Below are positions 310 through 8,670 of a stretch of 8,670 bases of DNA, piece by piece (position 1 is the stretch's first letter; the number at the start of each line of letters is the position of its first letter). The stretch spans positions 1 to 8,670 of the forward strand of contig DYJV01000081.1 in NCBI GenBank assembly GCA_020722945.1, read 5' to 3'. The position numbers and the translations under genes were made by a program. This DNA is from Candidatus Methylomirabilis sp. (GTDB lineage Bacteria; DYJV01). The notes beneath the pieces were generated by a model. It was not told where the DNA came from, ran no database searches, and saw only the letters and a list, made by a program, of their open reading frames with translations.

Positions 310-337
310 TTGACAAAATACATTATTTGTATAAATA
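310..337 (+). promoter_or_regulatory. Candidate sigma-70-type promoter of folD-fchA
   Basis: A perfect TTGACA lies at 310-315. An AT-rich -10 region follows, either TAAATA at 332-337 (16-bp spacer) or TATAAA at 330-335 (14-bp spacer, short). It sits about 50-75 bases upstream of the folD start and just inside the left repeat cluster. The -35 box is convincing; the -10 choice is uncertain. No operator or riboswitch is evident between it and the gene. Confidence 0.55.
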
Positions 338-388
338 AATTTAAATTTAGAAAGTAATACTTAAAAATAAAAATAGAAGGAGTTTAAA

Positions 389-1261
389 ATGGCTGCACAG
401 ATAATTAAAGGAATGCCAATTGCAGAGAATATCAGAAAAGAGATTACCGCTGATGCTGAAAAGCTCAAAGCTAAAGGGATACAGCCAAAGCTTGCTGTTG
501 TCCTTGTTGGGGGAAACCCTGCAAGTGTTTGGTATGCCAAATCCAAAATCAAAGTTGGTGAAAAAATTGGCGTTATTGTTGAGCTTACAGAGTTACCAGC
601 TGACACAAAAGAGACAGATCTTATCGCTTTTATACAAAAGCTCAACCAAGACTCATCCGTTCACGGAATTTTAGTAGAGCTCCCATTACCAAAGCATATC
701 GCAAAAGAGAAAGTTATGAATGCTATCCTGCCACTCAAAGATGTTGACGGAGTTACTGCTGTAAATAGAGGGTATGTTTTCGGTGGTCAGGATGACCTTG
801 CTCTTGTTCCTGCAACTCCTATGAGTTGTATAGAGCTTATCGTAAGAAGTGGTATCGATCTAAAAGGGAAAAGAGTCGCACTTGTTGGAAGAGGTGATAC
901 AGTAGGTAGACCCCTTGCTTCTCTCCTTATTACAAGACATGCTACTGTTACTGTTTGCCATACAAGGACAACCGATATCCCTTCAGTTACCAAAAATGCA
1001 GAAATTATAGTTGCAGCAGCAGGCAAGAGGGGTCTTGTTACAAAAGATATGGTATCACCAGGGACAGTAGTTATTGACGCTGGGATTAACGAAATAACAA
1101 AAGAGGACGGCACCACTACTATTGTAGGGGATGTTGATTTTGACAAAGTTCAGGAAGTAGCTTCACTTATTACCCCCGTTCCTGGAGGAGTTGGCTCACT
1201 CACTACATCTATAATTATGGCTAATGTTTTAAAAGCTATCAAACTACAAGGTCTTGCATAA
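389..1261 (+). CDS. folD: FolD, methylenetetrahydrofolate dehydrogenase (cyclohydrolase activity doubtful)
   Basis: This cytosolic enzyme of one-carbon metabolism oxidises 5,10-methylene-THF to 5,10-methenyl-THF and normally also hydrolyses the product to 10-formyl-THF. At 290 residues it has full family length. Visible signatures are VGGNPAS (40-46), the Y49-xxx-K53 catalytic pair, GILVELPLP (93-101), KDVDG (117-121), the dinucleotide-binding loop VGRGDTVGRP (166-175) and TPVPGGVGS (262-270). Several positions depart from consensus: Q to E at 97 in the QLPLP box, GRS to GRG at 167-169, FHP to VTA after DVDG, PxTPxG to PATPMS, and GPMT to GSLT near the C-terminus. E97 aligns with the glutamine needed for cyclohydrolase chemistry. 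AAGGAG at 377-382, six bases upstream, fixes the ATG. The gene is 15 bp from fchA, which suggests a shared transcript and a division of labour. Family assignment is secure; exact activities are inferred. Confidence 0.93.
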   Translation: MAAQIIKGMPIAENIRKEITADAEKLKAKGIQPKLAVVLVGGNPASVWYAKSKIKVGEKIGVIVELTELPADTKETDLIAFIQKLNQDSSVHGILVELPLPKHIAKEKVMNAILPLKDVDGVTAVNRGYVFGGQDDLALVPATPMSCIELIVRSGIDLKGKRVALVGRGDTVGRPLASLLITRHATVTVCHTRTTDIPSVTKNAEIIVAAAGKRGLVTKDMVSPGTVVIDAGINEITKEDGTTTIVGDVDFDKVQEVASLITPVPGGVGSLTTSIIMANVLKAIKLQGLA

Positions 1262-1276
1262 AAATAGGAGGATAAG

Positions 1277-1909
1277 ATGAATCTTTATCAGAAGACCATT
1301 AACGAATATCTTGAAGTAGCATCTTCAAGCTCACCAACACCGGGTGGAGGGAATGTTTCTGCTGTTGCTGCTACTAATGCAGCAGCTATGGTATGTATGG
1401 TTGCCAATCTTACAATAGGTAAAAAAGGTTACGAAGATCACCAAGATTCTGCAAAATCTGTATTAGCAAATGCGACATCATTAAGGGAAAAACTAAAAGA
1501 TCTCACACAGAAAGACATTGATGAGTTTAATGCTTATATGGCTGTATTGAAAATGCCTAAAAATACAGAAGAGGAGAAAGCAAAAAGAAAAGAAGCAATG
1601 CAAGTTGCTGCCAAAAATGCAACTATTGTTCCACTTGAAATCTCCAAAACATGTCTGGGAATACTTGTAGAAGCAGAAAAGCTTTCCAAATTTGGAAATA
1701 AGATGGCAATAAGCGATGTAGGTGTTGCAGCTTATATTGCAGAGGCTTGTGTAAAAGCTGCAATGTATAGTGTTGATATCAATTTATCATCAATAAAAGA
1801 TGACAAATTTGTTCAAGAAATTCTTGCTGAAAGAGCCAAAACTTTCACAAAAGCAGAAGAGCTCAAAGTTCTCACTCTCGCCAATGTCAACTATTGTATG
1901 GCAGGATAA
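1277..1909 (+). CDS. fchA: FchA-type methenyltetrahydrofolate cyclohydrolase / formiminotransferase-cyclodeaminase family
   Basis: This 210-residue protein has the size and signatures of the stand-alone cyclodeaminase/cyclohydrolase family (FTCD C-terminal domain): SPTPGGGNVSA at 19-29, an acidic IDEFNAYM segment (81-88) and GNKMAISDVG (140-149). Members are soluble, largely helical enzymes. They act either as formimino-THF cyclodeaminase or as 5,10-methenyl-THF cyclohydrolase. No histidine- or glycine-degradation gene is nearby, whereas a folD with an altered cyclohydrolase motif lies 15 bp upstream. I therefore favour methenyl-THF cyclohydrolase, producing 10-formyl-THF. AGGAGG at 1266-1271, five bases before the ATG, supports the start. 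Its last codon and stop lie inside a direct repeat (1904-1931) copied 64 bases downstream with a terminator. Confidence 0.85.
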   Translation: MNLYQKTINEYLEVASSSSPTPGGGNVSAVAATNAAAMVCMVANLTIGKKGYEDHQDSAKSVLANATSLREKLKDLTQKDIDEFNAYMAVLKMPKNTEEEKAKRKEAMQVAAKNATIVPLEISKTCLGILVEAEKLSKFGNKMAISDVGVAAYIAEACVKAAMYSVDINLSSIKDDKFVQEILAERAKTFTKAEELKVLTLANVNYCMAG

Positions 1910-3228: not shown

Positions 3229-3265
3229 CATTAAAAAGGATGGGTGAATCCCATCCTTTTTAATG
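3229..3265. terminator. Bidirectional rho-independent terminator between convergent genes
   Basis: A perfect 16-bp stem, CATTAAAAAGGATGGG (3229-3244) with CCCATCCTTTTTAATG (3250-3265), surrounds a five-base loop. A-runs on one arm and T-runs on the other let it serve both strands. It ends the aminotransferase on the plus strand and the 246-residue gene on the minus strand; the latter's TAA stop (3262-3260) lies inside the stem. Confidence 0.9.
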
Positions 3266-4000
3266 GTGTAAACAGCAGCTTAATGCTGCACCATTTTCAG
3301 TTTGGTAATGGGCAAGCTCATGCCATTTGTGTATGCAGTTTGTATCATCCACTATCTGCAGAGAGCTTTCGGGAATGTTAAAAATCTTTTTAAATGTCTC
3401 AAAGCCGTCCACTTTGTAAACAACTACATCAGATTCAGAATCTTCATAGATAAGTTTTAAAATATTTACTGCTGCTCTTTTCTGATAAAATGAGTAAACA
3501 GAATTAATCATATCAAAAAATATATCTGAAACCACTGAGTCTCCATATCGGTTATTTTCACTCTTAAGTAACATCAAAATATCCATAGATGAATCAACCA
3601 TAATACCAATCTCTCCAAGTTGGAATAGGTAAAGACTTTCCTCTAAAAAATCAAAATTGGGAGTAGATGTAGCAGCATCAAATTTGGCTCTATCATTTAT
3701 AAAGACGAGCTCCTCAGGGAGTAACTTGCCGAAATATTTTGAACTATTTTTTGGATAGTAGTAGAGCGTATAATTGAGGTAGAGATAATCCCCACTCTCT
3801 ATATATTGCGAGAAGTAAAGCATATATGCTCCTGAAATGTTATGACTCCAGAAATACCATGCAGGGGTATCTCCCCATATCTGGCTTATCCCTTTAAAAT
3901 TAATTTTGGAGCATACTTCTTCATAACATACAAGATGCCTGAAAGGATTCTCTACTGCACTTCTCTGATTTTGAAATATGTTAAAGTGATTTTTGCTCAT
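3260..4000 (-). CDS. Unrecognised soluble protein with Cys/His-rich C-terminal tail
   Basis: I do not recognise this 246-residue protein. It has no signal peptide and no membrane segment. The first half is rich in aromatics: a tryptophan cluster IWGDTPAWYFW (41-51) and a tyrosine-dense stretch at 72-90. The C-terminus carries closely spaced potential ligands: C222, H224, H227 and H231, then the final residues SCCLHH (C242, C243, H245, H246). That arrangement suggests binding of a metal or of a thiol-reactive cofactor, but this is inference. Its ATG overlaps the stop of the upstream 94-residue gene as ATGA (4000-3997), with only a weak AAGG-like ribosome site, so translation is probably coupled. 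It is the last gene of the minus-strand block. The tight coupling implies work with the membrane protein and the 94-residue protein. Confidence 0.8.
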   Translation of the reverse strand: MSKNHFNIFQNQRSAVENPFRHLVCYEEVCSKINFKGISQIWGDTPAWYFWSHNISGAYMLYFSQYIESGDYLYLNYTLYYYPKNSSKYFGKLLPEELVFINDRAKFDAATSTPNFDFLEESLYLFQLGEIGIMVDSSMDILMLLKSENNRYGDSVVSDIFFDMINSVYSFYQKRAAVNILKLIYEDSESDVVVYKVDGFETFKKIFNIPESSLQIVDDTNCIHKWHELAHYQTENGAALSCCLHH

Positions 4001-4281
4001 ATAAAACCTTTGTTGTGTAACTCTTTTGCAATATCAAGGGTATCTCTATCTTGAAAATCAATCCCCTCTTTTTTGGCTATCTGTTCAAAAAATTCTCTCG
4101 GATAAGCCAAAGTAAGGGAGTAGCTATTTTCATAATTTTCAAAAAAATCAAAGTTGTCCTCAAAAGACTCATTGATAGTTTCAATCAGATCATCAGATAT
4201 AGATTTTAACTCTTTGCTACTCTTATTTAAAGAGGTTACAAGCTCTTTTGCCCCTTTAATAAAAAAACATCTCCTATCCAT
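3997..4281 (-). CDS. Small soluble hypothetical protein with twin-arginine-like N-terminus
   Basis: This 94-residue protein of unknown family starts MDRRCFFIKGAKEL. That resembles a twin-arginine motif (RRxFF), but the hydrophobic segment of a Tat signal is missing: residues 15-45 are polar and charged (TSLNKSSKELKSISDDL and onward), more like a helix or coiled coil. The C-terminal part has YPREFFEQIAKKEGIDF (60-76) and a charged final helix. The ATG overlaps the 3' end of the membrane-protein gene by eight bases (ATGGATAG), and the stop overlaps the next start, so it is translationally coupled on both sides. Reality as a gene is supported by this double overlap and by the lack of any other frame filling the gap. 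A subunit or accessory role for the membrane protein is inference. Confidence 0.75.
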   Translation of the reverse strand: MDRRCFFIKGAKELVTSLNKSSKELKSISDDLIETINESFEDNFDFFENYENSYSLTLAYPREFFEQIAKKEGIDFQDRDTLDIAKELHNKGFI

Positions 4282-5467
4282 TTTTACACTTCAAAGGGAA
4301 AGTATTAAAAAATTTCTCATGAATCATAATAAGAGTTATCGACATAATTGACCAGCATAGAGATGTATCATCAACATTACCAACCCCGGGAACCCTGTCA
4401 ATATATTTTGCACCTATATTGCTATAATAAAAAAAGTATACTATCATCCCAAGCACAACAACTGCAATAAATCTCAAAAGTAAATTAAGGAATTTATTTC
4501 GAGAGGTAATAAAATTATTAAAATAAACCTTGATTATATTATGTGCAAAAAGCATAAAAGCAGCTATTTCAGCAACATGCAAATGTCTGAAGCGTGGATC
4601 ATCTGTATAATTCCCACCAGTAAATGGTTCATCCCATGCCAAATTTAAAATTGTCTCAACAATATACATAAAGAGAAATCCTGATACAACAGCAATAAAT
4701 AATATTATTATAAAATTGATAACCGAACCTCTCTCAAAATTAGGGAGGATTGTTTTGAGAAAATCTTTACCTGAATCAGATAAGAATGTTATAAAAAAAA
4801 CTCCTGCAATCATCCATCCAAGATGATAAAAAGAGCTTGACGTCATAGCTAATTCCTCCCACCATGGGATAACTCCTGCAAATAGCTGGGTTGGAACAAA
4901 AAGTGATGTAACATGTGGATGATATAGGACAGAATAGATAATTATAGCAAAAAATGATATAGCAAATGTTTTGCTTATACCTATAACAAAGTTGGATAAC
5001 ATTTCCCATGGCTGATTTTTAAAACCTATATTCCACAATGTTGCTACAAAGATAAATGATGTTACAAAGTATAAAATTGCAAGAGATGAATTTTCCCTTG
5101 CATTCCATATCTCTGCACCTACACCACCTGCTGCTATAATTGATTTGGGGCTAAAATAAGCAATTCCAAATTTACCAATAAAATTCCAGAAAAAGAGGTA
5201 ATAACCAAGAAAAAAGAGAATCAAAGAAATTATAAAGGGTAAAATACCATTTGAAGATTTGTTTGAAGAAGAGAAAGAGTTAAAAATATCAGTTACTAAG
5301 ATAATTGAACACATCAAAAATGTTATTAAAGATAGACCATACATAGGGGTAAAAAGTTTAAATATCCCATTAGTCGGAGCAAAAAAAACTCTCCAGATAA
5401 TAAAATTTAGTATAATGATAAGTATAAAACTGATAATACCTTTTTTAATATTATAGGATTCACTCAT
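4274..5467 (-). CDS. Polytopic membrane protein, about 10 helices, unknown family
   Basis: The 397-residue integral membrane protein is not one I recognise. Hydrophobic segments lie near residues 11-29, 44-62, 75-98, 128-146, 157-182, 213-230, 249-270, 297-316, 329-348 and 368-384. Histidines fall at or near membrane edges: HPH (183-185), H215, the RFRHLHVAE motif (292-300), H309 and H383. This recalls haem- or metal-binding membrane proteins, though no known cytochrome pattern fits. A conserved-looking polar loop WDEPFTGGNYTDD (278-290) precedes RFRHLH. I chose the ATG at 5467 because GGAGGG (5478-5473) lies five bases upstream. A longer frame beginning at 5506 would start inside a terminator hairpin. 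The gene is followed with an eight-base overlap by the 94-residue gene. Upstream the exported hydrolase is separated by an intrinsic terminator. Confidence 0.85.
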   Translation of the reverse strand: MSESYNIKKGIISFILIIILNFIIWRVFFAPTNGIFKLFTPMYGLSLITFLMCSIILVTDIFNSFSSSNKSSNGILPFIISLILFFLGYYLFFWNFIGKFGIAYFSPKSIIAAGGVGAEIWNARENSSLAILYFVTSFIFVATLWNIGFKNQPWEMLSNFVIGISKTFAISFFAIIIYSVLYHPHVTSLFVPTQLFAGVIPWWEELAMTSSSFYHLGWMIAGVFFITFLSDSGKDFLKTILPNFERGSVINFIIILFIAVVSGFLFMYIVETILNLAWDEPFTGGNYTDDPRFRHLHVAEIAAFMLFAHNIIKVYFNNFITSRNKFLNLLLRFIAVVVLGMIVYFFYYSNIGAKYIDRVPGVGNVDDTSLCWSIMSITLIMIHEKFFNTFPLKCKNG

Positions 5468-5490
5468 GACCACCCTCCATATCACAATAT

Positions 5491-5524
5491 AAAAAAGGAG
5501 CAGCATTTTAAAGACTGCTCCTTT
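5491..5524 (-). terminator. Rho-independent terminator/attenuator between hydrolase and membrane-protein genes
   Basis: On the minus strand AAAGGAGCAG (5524-5515) pairs with CTGCTCCTTT (5503-5494) around an 11-base loop and runs into six T (5496-5491). It lies 17 bases after the hydrolase stop and ends just 13 bases before the membrane gene's ribosome site. There is no space for a promoter after it, so downstream genes need read-through or a promoter inside the hydrolase gene. Confidence 0.82.
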
Positions 5525-5541
5525 ACTAAAACTTTATATGG

Positions 5542-6600
5542 TTAGAAAACTATTACATCCCCATTTGTGAGAAAAGCGTGTGTATCCCTTGCAACTGATG
5601 ACTTTTTGGGGTAACTTTTGTAGGTATCTGTCCCCTTTACAATTGGTAGACCACTCTCAGCAGCTTTTTCTGCCCAAATCCAGCCTGTGCAGTGATTACA
5701 CGCCATCTTCACAGGCTTGAATGATTTACAACCTTTTATTATATCATCAAATTTTGGATCCCAATTCTCAAAGAGAGATATATGTAACCCACCATAACAG
5801 CCGTATATATTTTTGCCACCTTCAATATTCTTCCTTGCAAAACTGTAAAGAGTGAGTATCCCTGGATGACAACAACCTGTAACTGTAACAATACCTTTAT
5901 CTTTTACATTGAAATAGAGGACATTCTCACCTCTAACCCTGAGAAGTATAGGAACATCAAACATTTTAATAGCAACTCCATCACCAAGTTTGTAAATCTG
6001 CTCAGGAACAGTCTTTATCAATTTCCCTTTAAAAGGTATGCTATTTTTACAGCCAGCAACTTTGTGGTCATATCCATTGAGTAACTGCTCATCTTCAGGA
6101 TACATGGTGCTTGGTCCATAAATAGTAAGTTTCTCATTGACATGCTTTAAGGTTGATTCTATACCCCAATAGTGATCCAAATGCCAATGGCTTATAATAA
6201 GAGTGTCAATTTCACCACTTTGAAGCATCTTGTCTATCCCATGTCTTTTGTAAACATAATCCATCCACTCATTATTCCACCCACTATCGAGGAGTATCTT
6301 CTTCTTTTTGCCATCAAGAAATTCAACTTCAAGGAGGGCTGAATATCCTCCAGAGTTGTTTTTGTCCCAAGGGATAATGTATTGGTTGGTATTTGCACCA
6401 CCATGGTCAACAATATCCTTTTTAAATTGGTCATTATTAAACCAGCTTGTCTCTGTAAGAACAGTCACCTTTAAACTCTTGCACTCACCAATATTCTCTT
6501 TTTTGCCAGCTGCAAGCTTTGAAGGAATTCCTAAATTTGTGATAGCTCCTGCAGCAACTGCTGCACCACCAACTGTTTTTAAAAATGTTCTTCTTTTCAT
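5542..6600 (-). CDS. Tat-exported metallo-beta-lactamase-fold hydrolase (COG1237-like)
   Basis: The 352-residue protein begins with a twin-arginine signal, MKRRTFLKTVGG followed by an Ala/Gly-rich hydrophobic stretch to about residue 31, so it should be folded with metal in the cytoplasm and exported to the periplasm. The mature part has a metallo-beta-lactamase core: LLDSGW (103-108), SHWHLDH (137-143, binuclear metal site), TGCCHPGI (241-248), GGLHIS (270-275) and CNHCTGW (301-307). This set (HxHxDH, GCxHPG, GGxH, HCTG) matches the COG1237 group, whose archaeal member is linked to dihydropterin-ribofuranosylaminobenzene phosphate synthesis. Most bacterial members have no proven substrate. 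A very strong purine-rich ribosome site (6610-6601) precedes the ATG. It is the first gene of the minus-strand block, with a terminator directly after it. Substrate unknown; fold and export well supported. Confidence 0.9.
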   Translation of the reverse strand: MKRRTFLKTVGGAAVAAGAITNLGIPSKLAAGKKENIGECKSLKVTVLTETSWFNNDQFKKDIVDHGGANTNQYIIPWDKNNSGGYSALLEVEFLDGKKKKILLDSGWNNEWMDYVYKRHGIDKMLQSGEIDTLIISHWHLDHYWGIESTLKHVNEKLTIYGPSTMYPEDEQLLNGYDHKVAGCKNSIPFKGKLIKTVPEQIYKLGDGVAIKMFDVPILLRVRGENVLYFNVKDKGIVTVTGCCHPGILTLYSFARKNIEGGKNIYGCYGGLHISLFENWDPKFDDIIKGCKSFKPVKMACNHCTGWIWAEKAAESGLPIVKGTDTYKSYPKKSSVARDTHAFLTNGDVIVF

Positions 6601-7129: not shown

Positions 7130-7738
7130 CTATGAAGATTTGTCTCTGTTTCCTTCATCTTTACAATTATCAGTATTGCATTTAATTTGGTTAACTATAG
7201 GTTTAGGGAAGTGATTGCAAAGCTGGTGATTTCTTATAGCAATTTTCATTTCAACCTGACACACTCCATTATCTTTATGTTTTATGTCAAGAATTTCAAC
7301 TCCTCTAATAAAAGAGTTAGTCGCTATATTTATCCTATCGTAATCAACAATATAATTACCAGCACGTGTGTAAGCATCTAAAAATATTCCTCTGAGCTTT
7401 TCAGATATAAGCCTATAACCATCAGCAATACCTGCTCTTTCAGCCAGAAGATATTTTTGAACATCAGTAAGTTCTTTATCAGCTGGTGGGGCACCTCTAC
7501 CTGTTGAGTATAGGTTTATAATACAGCAGTTGCCACTATTTACCTCTCCACCAAAAGAGTTTGTCCCTTTTACACTTCCTGCAAAAGTGTTGATACAGTT
7601 ATCAGCACAGGCTCCACTATGCATTGCAGGGGGATTTCCAGCAGATAAATGTTCAGCTGATACAAAATCAACAGATACAAAGAAAACCATTAAAAACAAA
7701 AAAAGAAAAGGAACAGACATAAAAAATTTCATTCTCAT
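7130..7738 (-). CDS. Secreted LPP20-type protein with Cys-rich N-terminal region
   Basis: This 202-residue protein starts with a classic Sec signal peptide: hydrophobic FLFLFLMVFFVSVDF, then VSA-EH with likely cleavage after residue 28. No lipobox cysteine is seen, so it is a soluble periplasmic or secreted protein rather than a lipoprotein. Residues about 92-170 (QKYLLAERAGIADGYRLI, then the IRGVEILD area and a strand QVEMKIAI) fit the LPP20/FlgT-N-like domain. Such domains occur in envelope and flagellum-associated proteins of unclear function. The mature protein has eight cysteines (44, 48, 71, 72, 160, 174, 187, 192), enough for several disulfides, which is unusual for this domain. GGAGGG (7748-7743) is four bases from the ATG at 7738; a second in-frame ATG at 7732 is also possible. 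It has its own candidate promoter and terminator. Confidence 0.78.
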   Translation of the reverse strand: MRMKFFMSVPFLFLFLMVFFVSVDFVSAEHLSAGNPPAMHSGACADNCINTFAGSVKGTNSFGGEVNSGNCCIINLYSTGRGAPPADKELTDVQKYLLAERAGIADGYRLISEKLRGIFLDAYTRAGNYIVDYDRINIATNSFIRGVEILDIKHKDNGVCQVEMKIAIRNHQLCNHFPKPIVNQIKCNTDNCKDEGNRDKSS

Positions 7739-7780
7739 TTAACCCTCCTCATAGTTAAATATTTTTTATTCTAAATAACT

Positions 7781-7809
7781 TTTATACTGAATCGGAAAAA
7801 ATATGAAAA
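7781..7809 (-). promoter_or_regulatory. Candidate promoter of the LPP20-type gene
   Basis: On the minus strand TTTTCA (7809-7804), a 17-base spacer and TATAAA (7786-7781) give a plausible sigma-70-type promoter. The expected leader is about 35 bases and contains the GAGGAGGG ribosome site. The spacing is right, but the -35 is weak. Confidence 0.4.
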
Positions 7810-7905
7810 ACTTAAACAAAGTTTATCTTATTTTTAAATCTTAATTTCAAAATAGTCAAGAATATTAAAGTTAACAAGAGTAAACAGTAGTATAAATAAT
7901 AAATT

Positions 7906-8150
7906 TTCAAGGTTCAAAATTTAAATTATCCCACCAAATTTATATTATTGTCATTTTAACAAACAGAGTGAAGGGCTTCGAAATTCCTATAGTCACCATA
8001 CTGAAGTCTGGAGAAAAGATAAAAATAAAAATTAAAAATAGAAAAAGAGGAAAGAGAAAAACAAAAATACAAAAGAAATACCACCCCGTCACCTGACGGT
8101 GCCACCCCTCCAAAGAGGGGAATTCCCCTCTACTTTGCTACACCCCCCAT
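7906..8150 (+). repeat. Composite intergenic repeat module, copy A
   Basis: In order the module holds a 24-base leader (7906-7929), a degenerate GTCATTT-type repeat (7950-7998), an A-rich linker (8011-8080) and a GC-rich REP-like hairpin element (8081-8134). The same order recurs at 8200-8405, starting with an identical 24-base leader. The section 7962-8047 is also related, in inverted orientation, to 181-272 at the left end. No gene is present. Confidence 0.75.
8081..8134 (+). repeat. REP-like palindromic element, copy R2
   Basis: The element starts CCACCCCG. It contains a dyad CCGTCA-CC-TGACGG (8086-8099), then a stem CCCCTC/GAGGGG, and a perfect 18-base palindrome at 8114-8131 centred on AATT. 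CACCTGACGGTGCCACCCCT (8090-8109) is identical at 8616-8635. The two possible hairpins share the GAGGGG arm and exclude one another. Confidence 0.75.
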
Positions 8151-8241
8151 AAGAACAGGCGTAAGGCTGAAGTGTTGAAGGCTGAAGGGAAAGATAAAAT
8201 TCAAGGTTCAAAATTTAAATTATAGTGACAAACTATATTTT

Positions 8242-8280
8242 TTGTCATTTCGACGAGCGTAGCAAGGAAAAATCTCAAGG
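8242..8280 (+). repeat. GTCATTTCGACGAGCG-type dispersed repeat
   Basis: GTCATTTCGACGAGCGTAGC followed by AAGGAAAAATCTC matches a short dispersed repeat that I know from intergenic DNA of many bacteria, where GTCATTTCGA...GAAATCTC recurs. It is GC-richer than the flanks. A degraded relative lies at 7950-7990. Its function is not known to me. Confidence 0.6.
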
Positions 8281-8330
8281 GCAGTCTTGAAGTGTGAGGA
8301 AAAAACAAAAACAAAATACAAAAGAAAAAA

Positions 8331-8405
8331 CCACCCCGCCGCTGTTATTATTTTTTTAAAATTCCCCTCCTTCGGAGGGGTGGCAGGCAGAGCCTGACGG
8401 GGTGG
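8331..8405 (+). repeat. REP/MITE-like element with inverted ends, copy R3
   Basis: The 75-base unit has perfect 8-base inverted ends, CCACCCCG (8331-8338) and CGGGGTGG (8398-8405). Inside is a strong hairpin, CCCCTCC (8364-8370), loop TTC, GGAGGGG (8374-8380). It is the most complete copy in the window. It encodes nothing and would need a transposase in trans. Confidence 0.75.
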
Positions 8406-8484
8406 TCAAAAGAGTGTCTGATATCTCAAAATAGTTTACCCCATAAATCGAAAAGATATGGGTGGGAAAAAATAGTTGTTAGTT

Positions 8485-8505
8485 TTTAGTGTTTAGTGTT
8501 TAGTG
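8485..8505 (+). repeat. Heptamer tandem repeat (TTTAGTG)x3
   Basis: Three perfect tandem copies of TTTAGTG are followed by a partial TTTA. At 8581-8603 another heptameric run, TTCTCAA-TTCACCA-TTCATAA-TT, is imperfect. Such short heptamer arrays are slippage-prone and occur intergenically in several phyla. Confidence 0.7.
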
Positions 8506-8606
8506 TTTATAACAGAAAAAAGATAAAAGCAAAGAGGGTTTATTTTTGTCTTGAGTGTTATAGTTTTTTTAAAAAAATAATTCTCAATTCACCATTCATA
8601 ATTAAA

Positions 8607-8651
8607 CCACCTCTACACCTGACGGTGCCACCCCTTGAGTAGAGGGGAATT
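8607..8651 (+). repeat. REP-like palindromic element, copy R4
   Basis: CCACCTCTACACCTGACGGTG leads into CCACCCCTTGAGTAGAGGGGAAT. The latter (8628-8650) is the exact reverse complement of 33-55, and 8616-8635 equals 8090-8109. R4 therefore combines the left half of R2 with the loop version of L1. The T at 8612, where R2 has C, breaks the canonical CCACCCC end. Confidence 0.72.
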
Positions 8652-8670
8652 GAAGCGAGATAAAAACAGA

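Follow-up and report, generated by a model that had tools for sequence, protein, structure and literature searches.

A conserved four-gene unit pairing an unnamed membrane protein with a predicted exported metallohydrolase looks like an undescribed cell-envelope system

Metallochaperones of the COG0523/CobW group (e.g., Nha3, ZigA, CobW and YjiA) mostly have, to our knowledge, no known client. For Nha3 one has been described: it matures the metalloenzyme nitrile hydratase, and CxCC is the defining metal motif of COG0523 (PMC9164220). Metal loading ahead of export is illustrated by MncA, a manganese protein and Tat cargo that folds in the cytosol, trapping the right metal (PMC4192464). At the locus described here, a helper protein, C, connects with the first of these systems through its homologues. 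In one of two layouts its homologues end in a full COG0523 GTPase preceded by an N-terminal domain of ~300 aa without a Pfam family, and in the present case C consists of that N-terminal domain alone with a Cys/His tail. A hydrolase, D, may follow the same logic of metal loading before Tat export as MncA, but the latter is a cupin, whereas D has a predicted metallo-beta-lactamase (MBL) fold, and no dedicated adaptor or membrane partner of MncA is reported in the source passage (PMC4192464). D has the metal motif set of COG1237-type hydrolases (PDB 2p4z) in common, with a profile alignment of ~210 residues, and differs from them by its Tat signal and its tie to an unnamed membrane protein, A. 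NrfD/PSR-type membrane subunits are like A in length and helix number, but A has no profile similarity to them.

The window is the whole 8.67-kb stretch of DNA that was analysed, a complete contig of a MAG. Its features are as follows.

5542-6600, minus strand: D, putative Tat-signal MBL-fold protein of 352 aa and of the COG1237 type, heading the conserved unit
5490-5524, minus strand: hairpin with a T-run, between the D stop and the A start (MFE z -3.3)
4274-5467, minus strand: A, 10-TM membrane protein of 397 aa
3997-4281, minus strand: B, soluble protein of 94 aa, starting MDRRCFF
3260-4000, minus strand: C, soluble protein of 246 aa, ending SCCLHH
3229-3262, no strand assigned: convergent terminator-like hairpin in the gap between the aminotransferase gene and C, AAAAGGATGGG...CCCATCCTTTTT, in part by direct reading
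7130-7738, minus strand: E, Cys-rich protein of 202 aa with a signal-peptide-like start
389-1909, plus strand: folD-fchA pair, 80-82% identity in a genome of the same order

The first-pass annotation had described A, B and C as a translationally coupled trio of proteins without nameable families. The overlaps are real: the frames of A and B share 8 bases (end of A at 4274, start of B at 4281), and those of B and C share 4, ATGA (end of B at 3997, start of C at 4000). For A, the start at 5467 is preferred over 5506 because of a GGAGG-type site just upstream and the alignment with relatives. D lies upstream on the same strand, 74 bp from A; folD, fchA and the aminotransferase gene are read from the plus strand and run towards C. 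Hairpins between D and A, alike in position and unlike in sequence, are found in the window and in L002-L006, L028 and L031 (z -3.2 to -6.2) and are not convincing in L029, L030, L032 and L033. The one in the window is likely to be a partial terminator or processing site, and the T-run that follows it means that more D than A may be made.

When named genomes were searched with the protein, A had five relatives at 53-58% identity (53-57% when aligned), which carry the labels Desulfuromonadales, Desulfobacterales, Desulfuromusa and Deltaproteobacteria. D, A and B follow one another in this order in all five, with C present wherever the contig extends that far; in four relatives B is 39-41% and C 29-30% identical. 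A profile of A was positive in 20 of 297 genomes of the relatives' phylum, while 386 genomes searched across the domain yielded only the window's own genome and one marginal fragment. The window's phylum is represented by two genomes, and the other one lacks A and retains folD-fchA at 80-82% identity. This distribution of A across phyla suggests that the unit may have come by horizontal transfer from an organism related to those bacteria.

The comparison covered 22 loci: the window, the five named Desulfuromonadales/Desulfobacterales MAGs and 16 further genomes, with three orphan A excluded. D adjoins A in every one of them. Two layouts occur. In type 1 (the window, L002-L006 and L028-L033) the order is usually D-A-B-C with a standalone C; L033 has B after C, and L032 has B beyond C. 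In type 2 (L034-L043) the order is A-D, and the C domain forms the N-terminal half of a protein of 607-682 aa that ends in a COG0523/CobW GTPase. This fusion lies near D without adjoining it in L036 and L043, and is missing from L038, where the contig ends early. Altogether the C domain is present in 20/22 loci, 11 times standalone and 9 times fused to a CobW-type GTPase. Homologues of A, B and C thus stand in the same order in independent genomes, so the trio is not a chance arrangement. The possibility that these are loosely linked genes with unrelated functions, to which the occurrence of D-like proteins alone in many genomes could point, is highly improbable. It is already disfavoured by the conserved linkage, namely the invariable A-D adjacency, the A-B-C overlaps and the co-location of the C-GTPase fusion with A and D.

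Neighbouring genes recur as well. A GntR-type regulator of the GntR/FCD class stands beside the unit in nine loci and a PAS/GAF-type sensor-like gene in eight, each in both types; L002, L005 and L006 have the GntR gene and all four genes of the unit closely spaced on one strand. The combination of an unnamed membrane protein, a putatively exported metallohydrolase and two helpers, one of them fused elsewhere to a metal-delivery GTPase, suggests a cell-envelope system that has not been described so far and occurs for the most part in sulfate- and metal-reducing bacteria. The open-access papers searched, which leave out most subscription journals, contain no account of the operon.

D, which the first-pass annotation left out, appears from its sequence to be the most recognisable catalytic subunit. 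It matches Pfam PF00753 (E 7e-8), and its profile matches the COG1237-type hydrolase of PDB 2p4z (E 3.3e-12, query 99-308). Its motifs are an RR-x-F-L signal, HxHxDH, TGCCHPG, GGLH and CNHCTG; HxHxDH, CNHCTG and GGLH are present in 22/22 D proteins, the first in the form HWHLDH in the window. These features identify D as a probable metal-dependent, COG1237-type MBL-fold hydrolase. The N-terminus carries a twin-arginine signal followed by a hydrophobic region (MKRRTFLKTVGGAAVAAGAITNLG), and a Tat motif is detectable by regular expression in 21/22 D proteins, the exception being L038, where the start of the frame is unclear. D is therefore predicted to be exported by the Tat pathway.

At a threshold of E 1e-20, D-like proteins occur in 34 of 297 genomes, 17 of which have no detected A. 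This argues that D can act alone and that its family is broader than the four-gene system. Several of the D-like proteins without A also lack a signal peptide and, by eye, lie beside selD-like genes; in L062-L064 and L068 such signal-less MBL proteins directly adjoin them. This suggests a selenium-linked paralogue. A role in anti-phage defence was considered and rejected, the PADLOC matches of D being weak and of a generic MBL kind.

The best functional clue lies in C: in one layout its domain is a protein by itself, with a metal-binding-like tail, and in the other it is fused to a metallochaperone GTPase. The Cys/His tail highlighted by the first-pass annotation is a family feature, since 10/11 standalone C homologues (all except L031) end in CxC or CC plus a His tail. 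The type-2 fusions contain bona fide COG0523 GTPases, with a P-loop and CxCC in 9/9, an NKxD motif in 8/9, and PF02492 and PF07683 above the cut-off in the three that were scanned. The fusion match in L043 is strong (E 4e-30), and those in L039-L042 are weaker (5e-8 to 3e-6). The P-loop, CxCC and GTPase domain are absent from C of the window itself and occur only in these fused homologues; CobW-type genes elsewhere in type-1 genomes do not adjoin the unit. C has no match in Pfam or NCBIfam. An AF2 model (pLDDT 84) gave no clear fold match with Foldseek + VIA, and a START/helix-grip comparison revealed a weak helix-grip resemblance whose best Z of 5.7 lies below the level of unrelated matches. 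Because of the fusion to a COG0523 GTPase with a P-loop and CxCC, C is probably a metal-delivery adaptor. Its client could also be A.

The same GTPase domain, together with the Cys/His tail of C, could point instead to acquisition of a metal or metallophore, in which A would transport a metal complex, D would open the ligand and C, or its GTPase fusion, would take up the metal in the cytosol. Genes for ExbB, an ExbD-sized protein and a TonB-like protein do lie by the C-GTPase gene in L039-L042. However, these are four apparently related loci and the only ones with TonB genes, no siderophore or outer-membrane receptor gene was recognised, and the regulator is of the GntR/FCD rather than the Fur/Zur type. 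Furthermore, a search of 18 loci for riboswitches, including metal and cobalamin classes, found none. Uptake of this kind is quite unlikely.

The start of B, RRxFF, is like a twin-arginine motif, but direct reading finds no h-region after MDRRCFF, only charged or amphipathic sequence, which speaks against B as a Tat substrate. The B profile was positive in 13 loci. Short proteins with an RR/KR-x-F start precede A in 7/10 type-2 loci, and the one in L043 is also among those 13; all of these short proteins are likely to be B homologues.

A had no match in Pfam, NCBIfam or the PDB sequences, the last even when a 20-homologue profile was used, and A, B and C had no meaningful match in PHROGs. A Pfam scan of 20 A members gave scattered weak DUF matches, the best being DUF1129 (E 5e-5) in 4/20 members, not including A of the window. 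A therefore appears to found an unnamed superfamily that none of the curated libraries searched contains. For the trio as a whole, the first-pass statement that no family could be named holds for A and C in Pfam and NCBIfam and for B with one sub-threshold Pfam match; clear matches to unrelated families did not emerge, and the gene order proved to be conserved.

The estimate of about ten helices agrees with ten hydrophobic segments in A, and charge bias supports a cytosolic N-terminus. Across the unit, E125, H183, W203, R294, H297, Y347 and Y348 show little or no variation. The edge histidines singled out at first fared unevenly: H183 (19/20) and H297 (20/20), at predicted periplasmic ends, are kept, whereas H295 and the second H of HPH are not, the latter being replaced by N in close relatives. 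With helix limits set by the analyst, 22 non-TM columns that are at least 90% conserved are predicted to be periplasmic versus 7 cytosolic, a marginal difference (Fisher p 0.065). Comparison of internal segments (R1-R5 score 28.9 and R1-R2 25.6, against a reversed maximum of 16.0, in short alignments) suggests that A may be built from two-helix repeats. The AF2 model of A from six sequences is unreliable (pLDDT 52), and its Foldseek/PDB matches are meaningless. Some motifs of A presumably recall PmoA/PmoC, a resemblance without Pfam support; among 20 A members there was no AMO/AmoC Pfam match indicative of a copper membrane monooxygenase. An origin from NrfD was rejected (hhalign probability 0.2%; no NrfD Pfam match in 20 members).

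These results bear on the idea of a membrane redox complex, in which A would hold haem or quinone at a conserved periplasmic His/Arg/Glu cluster and exchange electrons with the neighbouring small c-type cytochrome while D modifies a substrate. The retention of H183 and H297 would fit such a complex, as would a mono-CxxCH (c-type cytochrome) protein, weakly similar to QHNDH haem-binding or CBB3 cytochrome domains, that is clustered by the unit in six loci. However, no CxxCH gene was found beside most type-2 loci or recognised in the window, and neither the NrfD comparison nor the structural matches of the poor model lend A a redox relative. A complex of this type is decidedly unlikely.

A further branch of A-like proteins, found in 15/395 genomes, occurs without D, B and C. 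This orphan A is related to A over 401 columns (hhalign 99.8%). In 11/14 loci (L044, L046, L118-L129) genes of acyl-CoA metabolism, encoding an acyl-CoA synthetase, thiolase, acyl-CoA dehydrogenase or methylmalonyl-CoA mutase, lie at most four genes away, some of these neighbours having been identified by eye. Carboxylate uptake could account for this neighbourhood: D would be a periplasmic esterase or lactonase that frees an organic acid, A a permease importing it for acyl-CoA metabolism, and the GntR/FCD regulator a sensor of the acid. The presence of such regulators by both types of unit, weak lactonase-model matches among D family members and the two-helix repeat signal in A are consistent with this proposal. 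Nevertheless, A resembles no transporter family, the unit in the window is not adjoined by acyl-CoA genes, and H183, well conserved in A of the unit, is missing from the orphan branch. The COG0523 fusion would also be unexplained except as maturation of D. Carboxylate uptake is thus unlikely.

The reading we favour, with a confidence close to but short of even, is a four-protein cell-envelope system in which D is loaded via C, then passes through Tat and acts alongside A at the periplasmic face. D, a metal-dependent hydrolase, would fold in the cytosol before export. C would be an adaptor in the cytosol, recognising the apo-client and assisting in metal delivery, using its own C-terminal CxC/His tail in type 1 and metal supplied by the COG0523 GTPase of its fusion in type 2. 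B may be a small cytosolic helper that mimics the twin-arginine motif and possibly coordinates maturation of D with export. Most of the conserved loop residues of A are predicted to be periplasmic, and A would join exported D there, either as a membrane enzyme or as a channel or permease for the product of D. Beyond the linkage, the family motifs and Tat signal of D and the fusion, we infer metal delivery to D, the periplasmic partnership of D with A and the role of B. The original proposal, either a complex or a membrane enzyme along with maturation factors, agrees with the conserved linkage and the fusion of the C domain to a COG0523 GTPase and is supported in part; it needs correction in that the unit has four genes, and as maturation factors, C is supported and B weakly so. 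More tentatively, and on balance doubtfully, A may be a new membrane class of five two-helix repeats that forms with the Tat-exported MBL hydrolase an undescribed periplasmic enzyme or uptake complex of anaerobes, matured by a new type of adaptor with either its own Cys/His tail or a fused COG0523 GTPase. A COG0523 GTPase fused to a C equivalent and linked to D and A offers a specific, testable client pair, and solving the A superfamily could account for an envelope function that sulfate- and metal-reducing bacteria have conserved.

Several features lie around the unit. E has no above-threshold family in Pfam or NCBIfam and was not found in the five named relative loci. A one-carbon/B12 theme (folD, fchA, metH, metF and cobT neighbours) was set aside as probable neighbourhood noise, because folD and fchA of the window are on the opposite strand and are present without the unit in the genome of the same order. 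Upstream of the regulator genes of the unit, L002, L004, L005 and L006 carry a split MetH-like gene pair, and L031 has a Group II intron fragment (Rfam RF02003) near its C gene (325-465, minus strand). The contig fits its lineage in that folD is 82% and fchA 80% identical in the sole other genome of the order; contamination of the MAG (5.8%) leaves some doubt on this point. The ends of the window (7740-8670 and 1-260) are AT-rich and non-coding and carry repeats of the ACCCCGTC/CCTGACGG type and of TTAGTG, which are perhaps the reason that the assembly broke there.
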